From Bdellovibrionota bacterium (GTDB lineage Bacteria; Bdellovibrionota_G; JALEGL01; DATDPG01): a stretch of 41,797 nt of DNA. Within the stretch, counting starts at the first letter, position 1, and every line of letters begins with the position of its first letter. The stretch spans positions 1 through 41,797 of the forward strand of contig DATDPG010000014.1 of assembly GCA_035292885.1 (NCBI GenBank), written 5' to 3'. Shown piece after piece: positions 16,902 through 39,193 of this stretch. Under the pieces are notes generated by a model. That model made no database searches and had not been told where the DNA came from. It saw nothing but the letters and a program-made list of their open reading frames with translations. Both the position numbers and the translations under genes were made by a program.

Positions 16902-19694
16902 TTGGCGTTTAACCGAAATAAATCGCTGACCAAGGCGCAGAAACTTCTCCAAAAGGGGAAGGTCGCCGACGCCATCAAGGACTACCAAGAGGTGGTCGAC
17001 AACGACCCGACCGATATTCGTACGCTTCTCAAGATCGGAGACCTCCAAGCCAAACTTGGAAACATCGAAGCGGCCAACGACACGTATCGGAAGGTCGGCG
17101 AACACTATGCGAAAGACGGATTTTTTCTCAAAGCCGTCGCCGTTTTCAAACAAATTCTTAAACTCGATCCGGGTCTCATTACCGTCTACATCCGCTTGGC
17201 CGAGCTTTATCAACAGCTCGGCTTGAACAGCGAGGCGATGAAACAGTACCAGGTCGTCGTTCGTCATTACGAAAACAAAGGTCTCAAAAAGGAGTCCCTC
17301 GACGTTCTCCGGAAAATGTCGGAGCTGGATCCGGAAAATACGTCCAGCAAGATCAAGCTGGCGGAACTGTACGCCCGCGAAGGGCACAAAGAAGCCGCCA
17401 CGGATCAGTTTAAGGCCGTCACCGAAGATCTTCGAAAAAAGAACAACTTCCAGGATCTCGCGCGCGTGTTCGAAAAAATGGATTCGTTGGGGATGGCGGA
17501 TTCGACGATTAAGTTGGAACAGGCGGAGATGTATCTCAAGACCGCCGAACCTAAACGGGCGCTGACGGAGTTGCAGGCGCTTTTCCAGCAAGATCCGAAA
17601 CATCCTCCCACGTTGGAGCTGCTGGCTCGAAGTTTCCTCGACTTGCAGCAGCCGGAAAAGGCCAAATCGGTTTACAAAGAGCTCGTGGCGGTTTTAGACG
17701 CGAAGGGGATGCTGGAGGAGCGCGACCGAATTATGGCGAAACTCCGCGCGTTGGGAGTCTCCGCCGCGGCCGCAGCCGCATCGATTCCCTCAGCGCCCTC
17801 GACGGCTCTACGGGCCGAAGCGTCGAAACCGGCGCCGCCGCCTGCGGCGGCGGGTCCGGTCGATTCCACGAAAGTCTTGGGCGAAGTGGATGTCCTGTTG
17901 CAATACGGCCTTGTCGACAAGGCATGCGAAACGCTGGTGCGAATCGTGATGAGCGACCCAGAAAACGAGTCCATACGGAAAAAACTGATCTCCGTTTATC
18001 TCACCAGCAAGGATGTCAATGCGCTTGGCGAGGTTTTGAATCGCGCAGCGAAAACCGCGGAATCCCGGAAACAAAATGAACTCGTGAACACGCTGCGAGC
18101 CGAAATGGCTTCGCTCGGTATCGGAGCTGCGGCGCCATCGACGAAGAACGAAGCAGCGCCGTTGAATCCGGCGGACATGGGAGAAGCGGAAATCAGCAAT
18201 GCTATTGAGCTGGAGATCGTGGACGATGAGGCCTCGGCCGCTCCGGCGGTGGAAGCATCCCCGGAAGTTTCATCGGCGCACATGGAAAGCGAGTTCGAGC
18301 GACCGGTTTCCGAGGCCGGAGAACCCTCGTTTGATTTGGACGCTTCAGAAATCGTCGAGGACGGCGGAGAGGAGCCGGGTGAAAAGACCGTATTCGAGCC
18401 GCAAGTCTCGGCACCCGCTGCGGCGAAACCGGTGCCTCCACCGGAGGTCCCGACCGAAGACGTGGATGCGGCGATTCACTTTGACCTTCCCGACGAGTCC
18501 TTTGAGATTTCCAGCGAACCTTCCGCGCCGGTGGCCGAAGAGCCGGCCCCGGTCGTTGAAGACGAGGCGGTGGTGGAAGTGCAAGAGGCCGAAGAAGCGG
18601 AAGCCGTCGAGATTGAAAGTGCGGCCGCGGAAGCGGAACCGGAACCGGAAGATGAAGAAGAGGAAAGCGGCGAGGAGCCGGTGGTGGAAGAGACGCGGCA
18701 GTTCCGCCATTCCTCGGCGGAACGCAAAGATCATTTTACGACGGACATGGAAGAGGCGGCTTATTTTGTCCAACAGGGTCTCCTCGATGAGGCGATCGAA
18801 CTGTACGAAGATATTCTCTCCCAGGATCCGAAATATTCCCCCGCAGCGGAACGATTGGCGGAATTACGCGGCGTAAAACCCGCCCGGTCCTCCGTTCGAC
18901 CGGGATCCTCGGAACCGGAACGCCGAAAGGAAGCGCGGCCCTCGAAGGTTCAGCTCGACGAGGTCTCGCAGCCGAAATCGAAGAGCACGATGCGCGTGCT
19001 GTCGGAGAAAGCAAAATCGGCAGCTCCGAAGGAAGACTTCTTCGACCTCTCTAGCGAACTGCAGGACGAGATTTCAGACCTTGAAGCGGCGCTGGACAAA
19101 AAGAAAAGCCCGGACGAGGAAGAATATCTGAGTCCCGAAGAGGTAATCTCGGAATTTAAAAAGGGCGTCGCGCGCACCGTGGCGAAGGACGATTACCAGA
19201 CCCATTACAATCTGGGGATCGCTTATCGTGAAATGGGCCTTTTGGACGAAGCGATTGCAGAGTTTCGGGTGGCTTTCCACGACCCAAAGATGAGCGTTCA
19301 CTGCGCTTCGATGATCGGTCTCTGCCTTGTCGGTAAACGGGACTTCTCCGCCGCGATCGAGAATTATCGCAGAGCGTTGGCTCAGATCTCTCCGCAATCG
19401 GTGGAGGCATTGGGTCTCAATTACGAGTTGGCCGAGGCGCACATCGCCAGCGGAAACTTGACGGAGGGATACAAACTCTTCGCTCGTATTCGAGATGTAG
19501 ACCCTGCTTTTCGCGATGTGCGTCGCCGCGCCAAGGAACTCGAAGCGGATTTGGGTTCGTCTGCGCCGCCGCATTCCGCGCCGGAAAAGCCGGCGGAACC
19601 TAAAGCCAAACCAACTAAGGTCGCGGCGGAAAAAGGCGAAAAAGAAGATCAGGTGAAAATTCGCGCCAAGAAGACTAAAATCTCGTACATCTAA
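16902..19694 (+). CDS. Large TPR scaffold protein with acidic linker
   Basis: A 930-residue soluble protein. Residues 1 to about 285 are consecutive TPR-like repeats (KAQKLLQKGKVADAIKDYQE, FFLKAVAVFKQILKLDPGL, YIRLAELYQQLGLNSEAMKQ). A middle helical part follows, then a long low-complexity acidic Glu/Ala/Pro segment at about 430-610. A short repeat occurs near 620-660 (FVQQGLLDEAIELYEDIL), and C-terminal TPRs at about 760-890 (YNLGIAYREMGLLDEAIAEF). The tail is basic (VKIRAKKTKI). It starts at TTG 16902. The stop overlaps the downstream ATPase ATG by one base (TAATG). It resembles myxobacterial TPR proteins in layout; the function is unknown. Confidence 0.85.
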   Translation: MAFNRNKSLTKAQKLLQKGKVADAIKDYQEVVDNDPTDIRTLLKIGDLQAKLGNIEAANDTYRKVGEHYAKDGFFLKAVAVFKQILKLDPGLITVYIRLAELYQQLGLNSEAMKQYQVVVRHYENKGLKKESLDVLRKMSELDPENTSSKIKLAELYAREGHKEAATDQFKAVTEDLRKKNNFQDLARVFEKMDSLGMADSTIKLEQAEMYLKTAEPKRALTELQALFQQDPKHPPTLELLARSFLDLQQPEKAKSVYKELVAVLDAKGMLEERDRIMAKLRALGVSAAAAAASIPSAPSTALRAEASKPAPPPAAAGPVDSTKVLGEVDVLLQYGLVDKACETLVRIVMSDPENESIRKKLISVYLTSKDVNALGEVLNRAAKTAESRKQNELVNTLRAEMASLGIGAAAPSTKNEAAPLNPADMGEAEISNAIELEIVDDEASAAPAVEASPEVSSAHMESEFERPVSEAGEPSFDLDASEIVEDGGEEPGEKTVFEPQVSAPAAAKPVPPPEVPTEDVDAAIHFDLPDESFEISSEPSAPVAEEPAPVVEDEAVVEVQEAEEAEAVEIESAAAEAEPEPEDEEEESGEEPVVEETRQFRHSSAERKDHFTTDMEEAAYFVQQGLLDEAIELYEDILSQDPKYSPAAERLAELRGVKPARSSVRPGSSEPERRKEARPSKVQLDEVSQPKSKSTMRVLSEKAKSAAPKEDFFDLSSELQDEISDLEAALDKKKSPDEEEYLSPEEVISEFKKGVARTVAKDDYQTHYNLGIAYREMGLLDEAIAEFRVAFHDPKMSVHCASMIGLCLVGKRDFSAAIENYRRALAQISPQSVEALGLNYELAEAHIASGNLTEGYKLFARIRDVDPAFRDVRRRAKELEADLGSSAPPHSAPEKPAEPKAKPTKVAAEKGEKEDQVKIRAKKTKISYI

Positions 19695-20719
19695 TGAGTT
19701 ACCTGCAGTACTACGGCCTCGAACAGGAACCTTTCTCGAACGCTCCCGTCAGCCGATTCTATTTTCACTCGAAGCAACATGATCAGGCGCTTCTGCGTCT
19801 CCGGCGCGTGACGGATCAGATGAAGGGTCTGGCCGTCCTGGTCGGAGATATCGGCGCCGGCAAGACGACGCTCGCGCGAAAGATGCTCGATAGCCTTCCG
19901 GAGAGTGATTATGAAGCTGCGTTATTGGTGATCATTCACTCTTCGATTAGTGCTCAGTGGCTGCTTCGGCGGATCGCCCAGCAATTGGGAGTTCAAAAGC
20001 CGGCGGAGACCAAGCTTCAGATTTTGAGTCAGCTCTATCGGCGGCTGCTTCAAATCGCGGATAGCGGCAAAAAAGCGGTCGTATTGATCGACGAGGCGCA
20101 GATGTTACAGACGCGGGAGATCATGGAAGAGTTCCGCGGCCTACTCAATCTGGAAATCCCCGATAAAAAGCTGATTACGTTTATTTTCTTCGGTCTTCCC
20201 GAAATCGAAGACACCCTGAAACTCGATCCTCCTCTCCAACAACGAGTGGCGTTCAAATACCGACTGGATGCCTTTGATTCCGAATCGACGCGTCGCTACA
20301 TCGAACACCGCTTGAATCTTTCGGGTGCGACGAGAGCGATTTTCGATGCAAGCGCCATTGATGCCATCCATCAATATTCAAGGGGAATTCCGCGGTTGAT
20401 TAACACGCTGGCCGACAATGCGTTGTTTGAAGGATTTATCTTGAAGAGTGAAACGATTCGGACGGAGATCATCGAAAACATCGCCGTGGATCTTGGGCTT
20501 TCCGTTGCGCAAAAACGTGAGCTCCGGGTTGTCGGCAGCGATCAACCGGTCACCGTCGTGGACGAGGTATCGTTCGGAAATCCATTGGCGGAACCGCCGC
20601 TCATCCCTGAAGTGGAACTGGCGGAAGAGAAACCCGCGGAGCAACCCTTTGAGCGGTCCGAAACGCCGGAAAACGAGGATATTGATTCCATTCTCGCCGG
20701 CCTCGAAGAGAAGCTTTAG
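19694..20719 (+). CDS. ExeA/GspA-type AAA ATPase
   Basis: A 341-residue P-loop ATPase. The opening MSYLQYYGLEQEPFSNAPV is the ExeA/GspA signature. Walker A is GDIGAGKTT (51-59), Walker B VVLIDEAQ (129-136), and sensor 2 lies in YSRGIPRLINTLADNAL (about 229-245). The C-terminal 60 residues are acidic and Pro-rich; no membrane segment or peptidoglycan-binding domain is visible, unlike full GspA. ExeA-type proteins help assemble secretins across peptidoglycan, which would suit the PilQ or CpaC secretins in this window. The stop codon TAG is part of the following palindromic element. Confidence 0.88.
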   Translation: MSYLQYYGLEQEPFSNAPVSRFYFHSKQHDQALLRLRRVTDQMKGLAVLVGDIGAGKTTLARKMLDSLPESDYEAALLVIIHSSISAQWLLRRIAQQLGVQKPAETKLQILSQLYRRLLQIADSGKKAVVLIDEAQMLQTREIMEEFRGLLNLEIPDKKLITFIFFGLPEIEDTLKLDPPLQQRVAFKYRLDAFDSESTRRYIEHRLNLSGATRAIFDASAIDAIHQYSRGIPRLINTLADNALFEGFILKSETIRTEIIENIAVDLGLSVAQKRELRVVGSDQPVTVVDEVSFGNPLAEPPLIPEVELAEEKPAEQPFERSETPENEDIDSILAGLEEKL

Positions 20720-20885
20720 TGTCCCGAGTCCGACATATCTTGATAGACGGCCGCCGCTGCATCCCGGCTGGCTGCGTTGCTCCTCCTCAGCGTGCGGCCC
20801 TGCAAGTACGCCATCGTCGTCGCGCCTTGCCATCCGGGTGCATCGGTGTCCTTTGTTATCAAGCTATCTCGGACTCGGGACACTA
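20717..20885. repeat. Long imperfect palindrome (element A)
   Basis: The outer arms TAGTGTCCCGAGTCCGA (20717-20733) and TCGGACTCGGGACACTA (20869-20885) are perfect inverted repeats, and pairing continues inward (CTTGATA with TATCAAG; CATCCCGG with CCGGGTG-type bases). The centre contains TCCTCAGCGT ... CAAGTACGC, shared with element 0. The left tip includes the TAG stop of the ATPase gene. No reading frame of note lies inside. Its arms recur around hicA-hicB at 38367 and 39188. It may be a MITE/REP-type mobile palindrome and may also act as a transcript end. Confidence 0.85.
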
Positions 20886-29783: not shown

Positions 29784-30197
29784 GTGAAGTTCGTGATGCG
29801 GCAATCGTTTCTATTCCTGGTCGTTCTTTTCGTTTTTGCCGCGAGTTGCGGAAAGCCGAGGGTTCAGAAATTATCCGAGCGGGCCGATTCCTACAATCGG
29901 GCGCTTCGGTGGTCCAGCATCACGGCGGCAAGCACGTTAATCGCCGAAGATGTTCGTCGATCGGTGATTCAGGACTTGCTGCAAAAGATCGGCCGGAATC
30001 GAATCGTGGACTACTCGATAGTCGACCTTGGTGTGGATCCCGAAGAGATCAAAGCGAGCATCCTGGTCGAGTTCAGCTATTACGGAATATCCGATCAGGA
30101 CCTGAAATATCGCCAAGAAGTTCAAAACTGGGCGTGGGATTCACGGCAGAGGGATTGGTTTCTGCGCGAAAGCCGAGATCTTCCCGCGCCGAAGTAA
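29784..30197 (+). CDS. Putative small lipoprotein
   Basis: A 137-residue protein with a signal peptide ending FAASC (Cys 22). The mature part is mixed alpha/beta with a helix (SERADSYNRALRWSSITAAS) and strands IVDYSIVDLGVDP and KASILVEFSYYGI, and ends QNWAWDSRQRDWFLRES. The pattern is like small NTF2/cystatin-type periplasmic domains, but I cannot assign it. GTG 29784 is used; an ATG at 29796 is possible. The stop codon TAA touches the palindromic element that follows. Confidence 0.75.
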   Translation: MKFVMRQSFLFLVVLFVFAASCGKPRVQKLSERADSYNRALRWSSITAASTLIAEDVRRSVIQDLLQKIGRNRIVDYSIVDLGVDPEEIKASILVEFSYYGISDQDLKYRQEVQNWAWDSRQRDWFLRESRDLPAPK

Positions 30198-30362
30198 GGA
30201 CCCGTGACAAAATAACCTAGACATTTTTGCTTGGTCTTTTGAACCAGCTCTTCGTTGTTCGTCCTCGCGTTAGTGCCTCTGGCTAGCGCTTCGTCCTCAC
30301 GCCTCGATCTGATTCAAAATCCGTTGCGCAAAAATTGTCTACCTTATTTTGTCACGGGTCCT
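30197..30362. repeat. Long imperfect palindrome (element B) between convergent genes
   Basis: AGGACCCGTGAC (30197-30208) pairs with GTCACGGGTCCT (30351-30362). The pairing continues through AAAATAA/TTATTTT-type bases, GACATTTTTGC with GCAAAAATTGTC (to about 30230 and 30328), and TTTTGAACCAGCTC with GATCTGATTCAAAA. The core carries TCGTCCTCGCGT, related to elements 0 and A. It fills the whole gap between a plus-strand stop (30195-30197) and a minus-strand stop (30368), so it may serve as a two-way terminator. Confidence 0.85.
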
Positions 30363-38354: not shown

Positions 38355-38366
38355 GGGGGATACTAT

Positions 38367-38410
38367 CGCGAGTCCGACATGCCTTGATAGTCAGTCGCCG
38401 CTACGTCCCG
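38367..38410. repeat. Left arm of inverted-repeat element C
   Basis: GAGTCCGACAT (38370-38380), CTTGATAG (38383-38390) and CGCCGCTACGTCCCG (38396-38410) match the left arm of element A (20724-20765) with a few differences, in the same orientation. The arm is complementary to the right arm at 39141-39188 (GAGTCCGA with TCGGACTC; CTTGATA with TATCAAG). Confidence 0.8.
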
Positions 38411-38429
38411 ACTCGATCCAGAAGGTTTT

Positions 38430-38855
38430 TCATGCCGCAAGGCGGATATCGATATTCTCTCCCAGAGCTTCGCTGATCGTAACAAGAGTCTTGACGGTCG
38501 GGTTTGATTTACCCGGAGTTTCCAACTTCTGAAGTTGTTGAAACGTGATGCCGATCCGTTTAGCAAGCTCCTTCTGCGTAAGTCCATGCCTCCGGCGTTC
38601 CTGGCGTATCAGCAACGGGATTAATACATCTTCATAGGGAGTAACCCACTCATACCGCTTGCTTCGTCGAACCTTCGAACGAGGCAGATCCCATTTCGGA
38701 TCACGCGCTTCCTCCAGATATAGGCTCATTGCTTCCCGCGCATTTCGGCGAGCTTCATCCCTGGTCGCTCCGTCACTAAAGCACCCCGGGAGATCCGGAA
38801 ATTCAACGGAGTAACGAGTGCCATCTTTATAGATCTTTGCTTGATACCGAATCAT
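38430..38855 (-). CDS. hicB: HicB-family antitoxin with XRE DNA-binding domain
   Basis: A 141-residue antitoxin. The N-terminal HicB domain (about 1-65) shows RYSVEFPDLPGCFSDGATRDEARRNAREAM, the partial RNase H-like fold that covers the HicA active site. A C-terminal XRE helix-turn-helix (about 82-135, RHGLTQKELAKRIGITFQQLQKLE) should bind the operator upstream of hicA. Its start overlaps the hicA stop by four bases (ATGA). The toxin-first order is the usual one for hicAB. Its DNA target is likely the perfect palindrome at 39053-39072. Confidence 0.93.
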   Translation of the reverse strand: MIRYQAKIYKDGTRYSVEFPDLPGCFSDGATRDEARRNAREAMSLYLEEARDPKWDLPRSKVRRSKRYEWVTPYEDVLIPLLIRQERRRHGLTQKELAKRIGITFQQLQKLETPGKSNPTVKTLVTISEALGENIDIRLAA

Positions 38856-39043
38856 AAGAGTTTCTCTCCCGTCTGTTTTTCTATCGCGCGCACCAATCCA
38901 ATTCCCAAATCGTGGTTGGCGTGGACAGGCACCTCCGTCATTTTTCCCTCCTTAACCAGTTTGACATGAGAACCTCGCTGGCTTTTCACGACCCATCCTC
39001 GCTTTCTCAGGATTTTGATGACCTTCTTTCCCGAGATGGGCAT
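38852..39043 (-). CDS. hicA: HicA-family mRNA interferase toxin
   Basis: A 63-residue toxin with a double-stranded RNA-binding-like fold. MPISGKKVIKILRKRGWVV and the catalytic-His segment SQRGSHVKLVKEG are diagnostic. HicA cuts mRNAs in translation. I use ATG 39043, the usual MPxSGKxV start; an in-frame ATG-like start at 39061 would add six residues inside the operator. No ribosome-binding site precedes the ATG, and the promoter is so close that the message may be nearly leaderless. It looks intact. Confidence 0.92.
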   Translation of the reverse strand: MPISGKKVIKILRKRGWVVKSQRGSHVKLVKEGKMTEVPVHANHDLGIGLVRAIEKQTGEKLL

Positions 39044-39052
39044 TCGGCATGT

Positions 39053-39089
39053 ATACAGCAATTATGCTGTATTTCAAGACTTTAGGCAA
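39053..39089 (-). promoter_or_regulatory. hicAB promoter with palindromic operator
   Basis: On the minus strand TTGCCT (39084-39089) and CATAAT (39061-39066) are spaced by 17 bases. The -10 box lies inside a perfect palindrome, ATACAGCA-ATTA-TGCTGTAT (39053-39072), ending ten bases before the hicA ATG. A repressor bound here, most likely HicB through its XRE domain, would block RNA polymerase. Confidence 0.7.
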
Positions 39090-39102
39090 GCGGATGCCTC
39101 TA

Positions 39103-39137
39103 TGTAAAAAGAAAAGGGCCAACCTTCCGCCCGGCCC
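39103..39137 (-). terminator. Rho-independent terminator on the minus strand
   Basis: On the minus strand GGGCC (from 39137) pairs with GGCCC (39120-39116) across a 12-base loop and is followed by a T-rich run (TTTTCTTTTT, 39115-39106). It would stop transcripts coming from the helicase gene at 39194-40345 before they enter hicA. Confidence 0.75.
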
Positions 39138-39140
39138 CCC

Positions 39141-39188
39141 GGTCGCATCGGCGTCCTTTGTTATCAAGCTATCTCGGACTCGGGACAC
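39141..39188. repeat. Right arm of inverted-repeat element C
   Basis: From GCATCGG (39145) to CGGGACAC (39188), this is almost base-for-base the right end of element A (20840-20883), with one clear difference (GGCGTCC instead of GGTGTCC). The end lies five bases from the stop codon of the helicase gene (39194-39196). Confidence 0.85.
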
Positions 39189-39193
39189 GAGGG

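Follow-up and report, generated by a model that had tools for sequence, protein, structure and literature searches.

Element A, a palindrome that begins at the stop codon of an ATPase gene in the window (the whole 41,797-nucleotide stretch of Bdellovibrionota DNA analysed here), is probably a non-autonomous mobile element that is tolerated at stop codons by regenerating them and that would be read as a folded hairpin by an enzyme acting in trans; we put the probability of this reading at about three in four. Counted in its favour are a family of copies with common ends and unrelated flanks, the alike ends of ATPase orthologues, empty sites, the bases flanking the TA positions, the frames of entering ORFs, covariation, a patchy spread and half-elements. 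In the proposed mechanism, an element of about 165 bp would insert at a TA in a pyrimidine-TA-purine context and duplicate the TA. Insertion at a stop codon would rebuild a TAG, so that the protein would stay unchanged and the copy would be tolerated. An enzyme supplied in trans would move it and would probably recognise the folded form, hairpin or cruciform, by means of an asymmetric internal loop that is conserved close to the tip. The parts of element A and the adjoining gene are as follows.

19694..20719, + strand: ATPase gene of the AAA_22, ExeA-like type; its stop codon forms the element edge (ORF and domain search)
20717..20885, + strand: element A, a complete copy, 169 nt with both terminal TA positions counted, core orientation +
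20717..20719, + strand: TAG stop of the ATPase gene, modelled from the related family's empty sites as a target TA followed by the G that opens the element
20717..20733, + strand: left outer arm, 17 nt, perfect complement of 20869-20885
20869..20885, + strand: right outer arm
20774..20831, + strand: core, with conserved internal-loop strands GCGTTGCTCCTC and TCGTCGCGCCTTGCC flanking a variable apical stem

The extent of the palindrome and its perfect 17-base outer arms, described in a first-pass annotation of the window, were confirmed by a direct check of pairing, and longer arms of 29 nt are 93% complementary with the outermost 17 bases perfect. The same annotation had pairing running inward for most of the 169 bases; pairing is indeed extensive, but it is not continuous, being interrupted near the tip (at about 20774-20831) by a conserved internal loop that is the same throughout the family. 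The proposed strong hairpin, placed where the gene ends, agrees with RNA folding: element A reaches -92.6 kcal/mol, whereas 200 dinucleotide shuffles give -56.7 +/- 4.1 and 0/200 are as stable (z -8.9). Once transcribed, it would leave the mRNA with a highly stable hairpin in the 3'-UTR, and this may influence the stability of the transcript. Selection in the host for a terminator or mRNA stabiliser at the 3' end of the ATPase gene would account for such a structure directly 3' of the stop, but no U-run was found at the 3' foot of the palindrome, where an intrinsic terminator would carry one immediately after a GC stem, and copies of the element are found next to unrelated genes and also just upstream of starts (for instance, L004 and L014 are insertions at gene starts rather than ends). 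This explanation is very unlikely; as a terminator, the hairpin would be non-canonical, and such a function is not supported.

The first bases of the element are the TAG stop of the ATPase gene, as the annotation had stated, and the ORF encodes 341 aa of the AAA/ExeA type (AAA_22, E 9.7e-24). The annotation further suggested that element A may have ended the reading frame when it inserted; truncation by insertion inside the coding region would fit a stop codon placed exactly at the element edge. It named as a sign against truncation orthologues with the same C-terminus and non-homologous DNA downstream, and this is what the comparison found. The ATPase of the window ends in ...DIDSILAGLEEKL, and clear versions of this motif lie within 0-1 residues of the end in 4 of 7 orthologues from other genomes (DIDAILEGIVEKN, EIDSILDKLEKGN, EIDRYLEGLGKL and KIDALFDDLEEK); two of the remaining orthologues have a weaker acidic tail and one is without the motif. 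Judged by eye, the DNA 3' of the stops appears unrelated in the seven orthologues. The common C-terminal end, together with empty sites in a related family that have an existing stop at, or about one codon from, the insertion site (4/4), argues against truncation, which is highly improbable. Element A thus probably left the ATPase protein whole, having inserted at the stop and rebuilt it, with empty sites coming from the related family and none from the window copy itself.

The related family, with ends TAGTGCCC...GACACTA, is found in G010 and G297, two genomes of one genus. At a P-II gene, the protein end and stop are SERGESAL-TAA in the genome without the element and SERGEAAL-TAG in the filled one, where the TAG is the element's first bases; the Pfam P-II domain is present in both orthologues. 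A single combined query was made from the flanks of four further copies, which had been chosen because an ORF ends in each, and therefore the test addresses truncation and not the frequency of stop-codon insertion. Three contiguous element-free sites were found, and none was found by this search for the fourth copy (L209). In the pair L224 and L235, the empty site has a single TA; in the filled site, AA precedes the element and TA follows it. The gene stop is TAG in both. The orthologue of L223 has a TGA stop one codon earlier than the filled copy, and that of L220 has a TGA at the same codon (codons read by eye in both). At all four element-free sites, which lie at gene ends, entry was at or beside the stop, where TA plus G gives TAG, and the protein end is unchanged or shifted within about one codon. 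TA ends and duplication of the TA target are seen at these sites, with the TA undamaged on both readings in only 1/4 and its copies decayed at the others.

The same target appears in the wider set of copies. Both ends could be placed in 41/45 copies, the 4 exceptions being L214, L216, L219 and L221. Of these 41, 39 have C or T immediately before the left TA position and 27 have G immediately after the right one. ORFs of at least 150 codons enter the element in the TAG frame in 19 cases and in the other frames in 7 and 4 (45 copies, L212 being left out at a contig end; p 7e-4); in this and the flanking-base count, some ends, such as those of L154, L210, L215 and L222, are poorly placed. A long ORF in that frame is found at 19/45 elements against 35/197 YTAR sites of the same loci, an excess (p 7e-4) that weakens to p 0.02 if the count is restricted to the 15 copies for which an original stop could be inferred. 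When L209, L211 and L127, whose far flank is hidden by a tandem remnant, are left out of the 19 TAG-frame copies, 15/16 reconstruct by hand tabulation to TAA, TAG or a decayed form and 1/16 (L003) to TAT. Over all TA sites of the same loci, no stop-codon excess was found (19/45 copies against 827/2110 random TA sites), and a strong preference for stop codons beyond the target rule was accordingly rejected. An in-frame YTAR is a stop codon by definition, and therefore there is no in-frame target inside a gene. Moreover, the element starts with G and ends with C, so that insertion at a stop codon regenerates TAG in either orientation. The simplest account is a target preference combined with the loss of harmful insertions, stop codons being harmless through TAG regeneration.

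That the palindrome is a mobile repeat with other copies, as the annotation implied, is borne out by a split copy in the window and by 15 near-full copies, element A included, in the window's genome (3.1 Mb, 214 contigs), each with at least 162 bases matched at 86-100% identity. The genome also holds numerous single ends and two further matches to part of the element, one of 131 bases and the other of 82. Aligned copies have common ends, mostly YTAGTGTCC and GGACACTAG, and flanks without similarity. A later model of the core, applied with an E cutoff of 1, matches 26 places in this genome (E below 2e-4 in 25), and these include element B and families with quite different arms. An Rfam search with the element gave no match. 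The other members in the window are as follows.

30197..30362, + strand: element B, with other arms and the same core layout, starting at the TAA stop of ORF 29784-30197 (core model E 2.8e-7)
38361..38413, + strand: split copy, left arm (79% identity with positions 1-53 of the element)
38430..38855, - strand: HicB-like antitoxin gene between the split-copy arms (Pfam HicB_lk_antitox E 7.1e-12, HTH_3)
38856..39046, - strand: HicA toxin gene between the split-copy arms (Pfam HicA_toxin E 4.7e-17)
39128..39191, + strand: split copy, right arm (88% identity with the right part of element A)

A second copy of element B, 83% identical, lies at L063:713-875. At L060:246-347, a family member with other arms (CCAGACTCAAAATTTA...) abuts the 3' end of an apparent tRNA gene, and at L059:1500-1560 (G000 contig C162) an end remnant lies between apparent atpG and atpD genes, its TAG being the upstream stop (genes judged by eye at both loci).

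In the split copy (38361-39191), the core is exactly replaced by about 714 nt carrying hicB and hicA. Many of the matches in G010 and G297 are half-elements broken near the core, and G000 contains halves and arm-only forms, the smallest a perfect palindrome of 25 bp. Nucleases of the SbcCD type cleave hairpin tips, a plausible reason for breaks at the core, and the half-elements would fit tip cleavage of an unstable palindrome. In L211 and L217, the copy is followed by a partial second left end with the same private variants, which suggests head-to-tail multimers. Core matches are also found in head-to-tail arrays with a spacing of about 171 bp in L090 and L097 (OX639991.1, Longimicrobiales), as inverted, BIME-like pairs about 110 nt apart in G216, G241, G068, G340, G350 and G370, and with an extra insert of ~65 nt inside one arm, with a motif like GTTACATTCTGTCATGT, in L087, L099, L104, L113 and others (Gemmatimonadota).

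The exact core pattern was found in at least 119 stretches of named genomes, with usable flanks in 114 matches. Among the matches listed, genome labels include Acidobacteria, Gemmatimonadota, several Pseudomonadota, Myxococcales, Verrucomicrobia, Binatia, Eisenbacteria, Krumholzibacteriia and others. In the 385 genomes sampled around that of the window, 27 (the own genome counted) have a core match at E up to 0.001, and none was found at this threshold in the four nearest relatives. Viral contigs gave 10 pattern matches, of which L074 and L075 alone look genuine and the remaining 8 resemble chance matches in coding DNA; a plasmid search with the window core gave no match. Covariation was scored on an alignment made by sequence (A1) of 42 of 44 diverse cores, L060 and L061 being omitted for their long apical parts. 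The named pairs of the outer arms and apical stem are formed in 72% of cells, with 238 double-change cells, and the covariation score is 0.565 compared with 0.18 in shuffled and 0.13-0.19 in slid alignments; 19/19 pairs have changed on both sides. Both strands of the internal loop hardly vary, which is partly by construction, as 30 of the 44 sequences were redundancy-reduced from the 114 exact-pattern matches; the rows found otherwise, which like the 26 core-model matches of the own genome are less bound by the exact pattern, largely keep them.

Correction of quasi-palindromes is a known mutational process. Such correction, or tandem duplication during replication, could keep the arms complementary without any recognition of a folded form, and the partial tandem second ends with common private variants in L211 and L217 would be in keeping with it. 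The internal loop, however, is mismatched and yet conserved while the arms change on both sides, a feature that correction alone would erase; we regard this explanation as rather unlikely and prefer recognition of the fold. The attC sites of integrons likewise combine variable arms with a conserved structure, in which conserved bases are left unpaired and the terminal stem varies; a tyrosine recombinase recombines them in the form of a folded strand. The element may be compared with them by resemblance only, and here the whole element moves, with TA duplication. Tentatively, and at somewhat less than even odds, the copies may form one superfamily across many phyla, in which complementary arms change around a conserved asymmetric loop read as a folded strand by one putative kind of enzyme, gene ends serve as a safe harbour, and tips are breakable or carry cargo (hicBA).

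Clustering of ORFs near the 119 cores gave no identifiable recurrent linked gene; the clusters mainly overlap the element itself (distance 0), with a few small ones off the element, and a linked mover gene may yet lie among them. Transposases of the IS630/Tc1-mariner type use a TA target. A MITE moved by such an enzyme would agree with the TA target and TA duplication seen here and with the two DDE_3 genes of G000. Against this, DDE_3 genes occur in 4/18 element-bearing and 4/18 element-free genomes and were not found in G010, G297 or G158 (drafts of 72-85% completeness), the terminal repeat of L232, the one locus read of the two in G000, is unrelated, and such a MITE would presumably not need a conserved tip core; this origin is unlikely. 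A REP/BIME-type repeat moved by a hairpin-reading Y1 (RAYT) transposase would also be based on a hairpin located at gene ends, and Y1 genes are present in G000. Yet Y1 genes occur in 13/18 element-bearing and 11/18 element-free genomes, five of the former (G010, G297, G158, G216 and G350, some incomplete) gave no Y1 match, the element is five to eight times as long as a REP, and the related family shows TA duplication, which makes a RAYT origin quite improbable. Both Y1/RAYT and IS630 were set aside as movers, their presence showing no association with the element in these 18 and 18 genomes.

By its TA ends, TA duplication and long palindrome, the nearest known kind would be TA-inserting palindromic elements such as ERIC. 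In the accessible text of the sources, ERIC (enterobacterial repetitive intergenic consensus; also IRU or RU-1) is likewise short, palindromic, non-autonomous and intergenic, with TA ends and duplication and no known mover (PMC2229807, PMC2759123); ERIC differs in its length of 127 bp, against about 165 for the element, and in its terminal sequence. Homology to ERIC is not supported: the core model scores an E. coli ERIC copy at 4.3 bits (E 5.6, not significant), and in a block test 54/500 shuffles were as good. Placing ERIC in the same superfamily, attractive by eye, was rejected on these tests. REP/BIME repeats with RAYT (the GTAG and CGTC super-families) are hairpins close to gene ends, and the ends of GTAG REPs have already been reported to give TAG stops to ORFs often (PMC3733652, accessible part); the same text gives REPs as hairpins of 20-40 bp with a GTAG or CGTC tag, whereas the element has 169 nt and ends YTAGTGTCC. 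RUP, Correia/NEMIS and other MITEs are similarly short and non-autonomous with TA ends, as far as the accessible text of PMC2229807 goes. According to that text, RUP has ends in common with a resident IS630 (RUP/IS630-Spn1), whereas the ends at the one IS630-type G000 locus read are unrelated, and a conserved mismatched tip core is not described there for RUP, Correia or NEMIS. Literature searches, with most subscription papers and all preprints outside their scope, found among the matches listed no paper on such an element by core or end sequence and no account of the superfamily by topic.

The movement of ERIC-like palindromes is a long-standing open question, left for future work in the accessible part of PMC2229807. 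The present set, with its empty sites, target rule and conserved, testable core across phyla, would give the search for a mover a defined substrate. It would also explain how such elements can reside harmlessly at gene ends, where the in-frame target is a stop codon that the element itself rebuilds.
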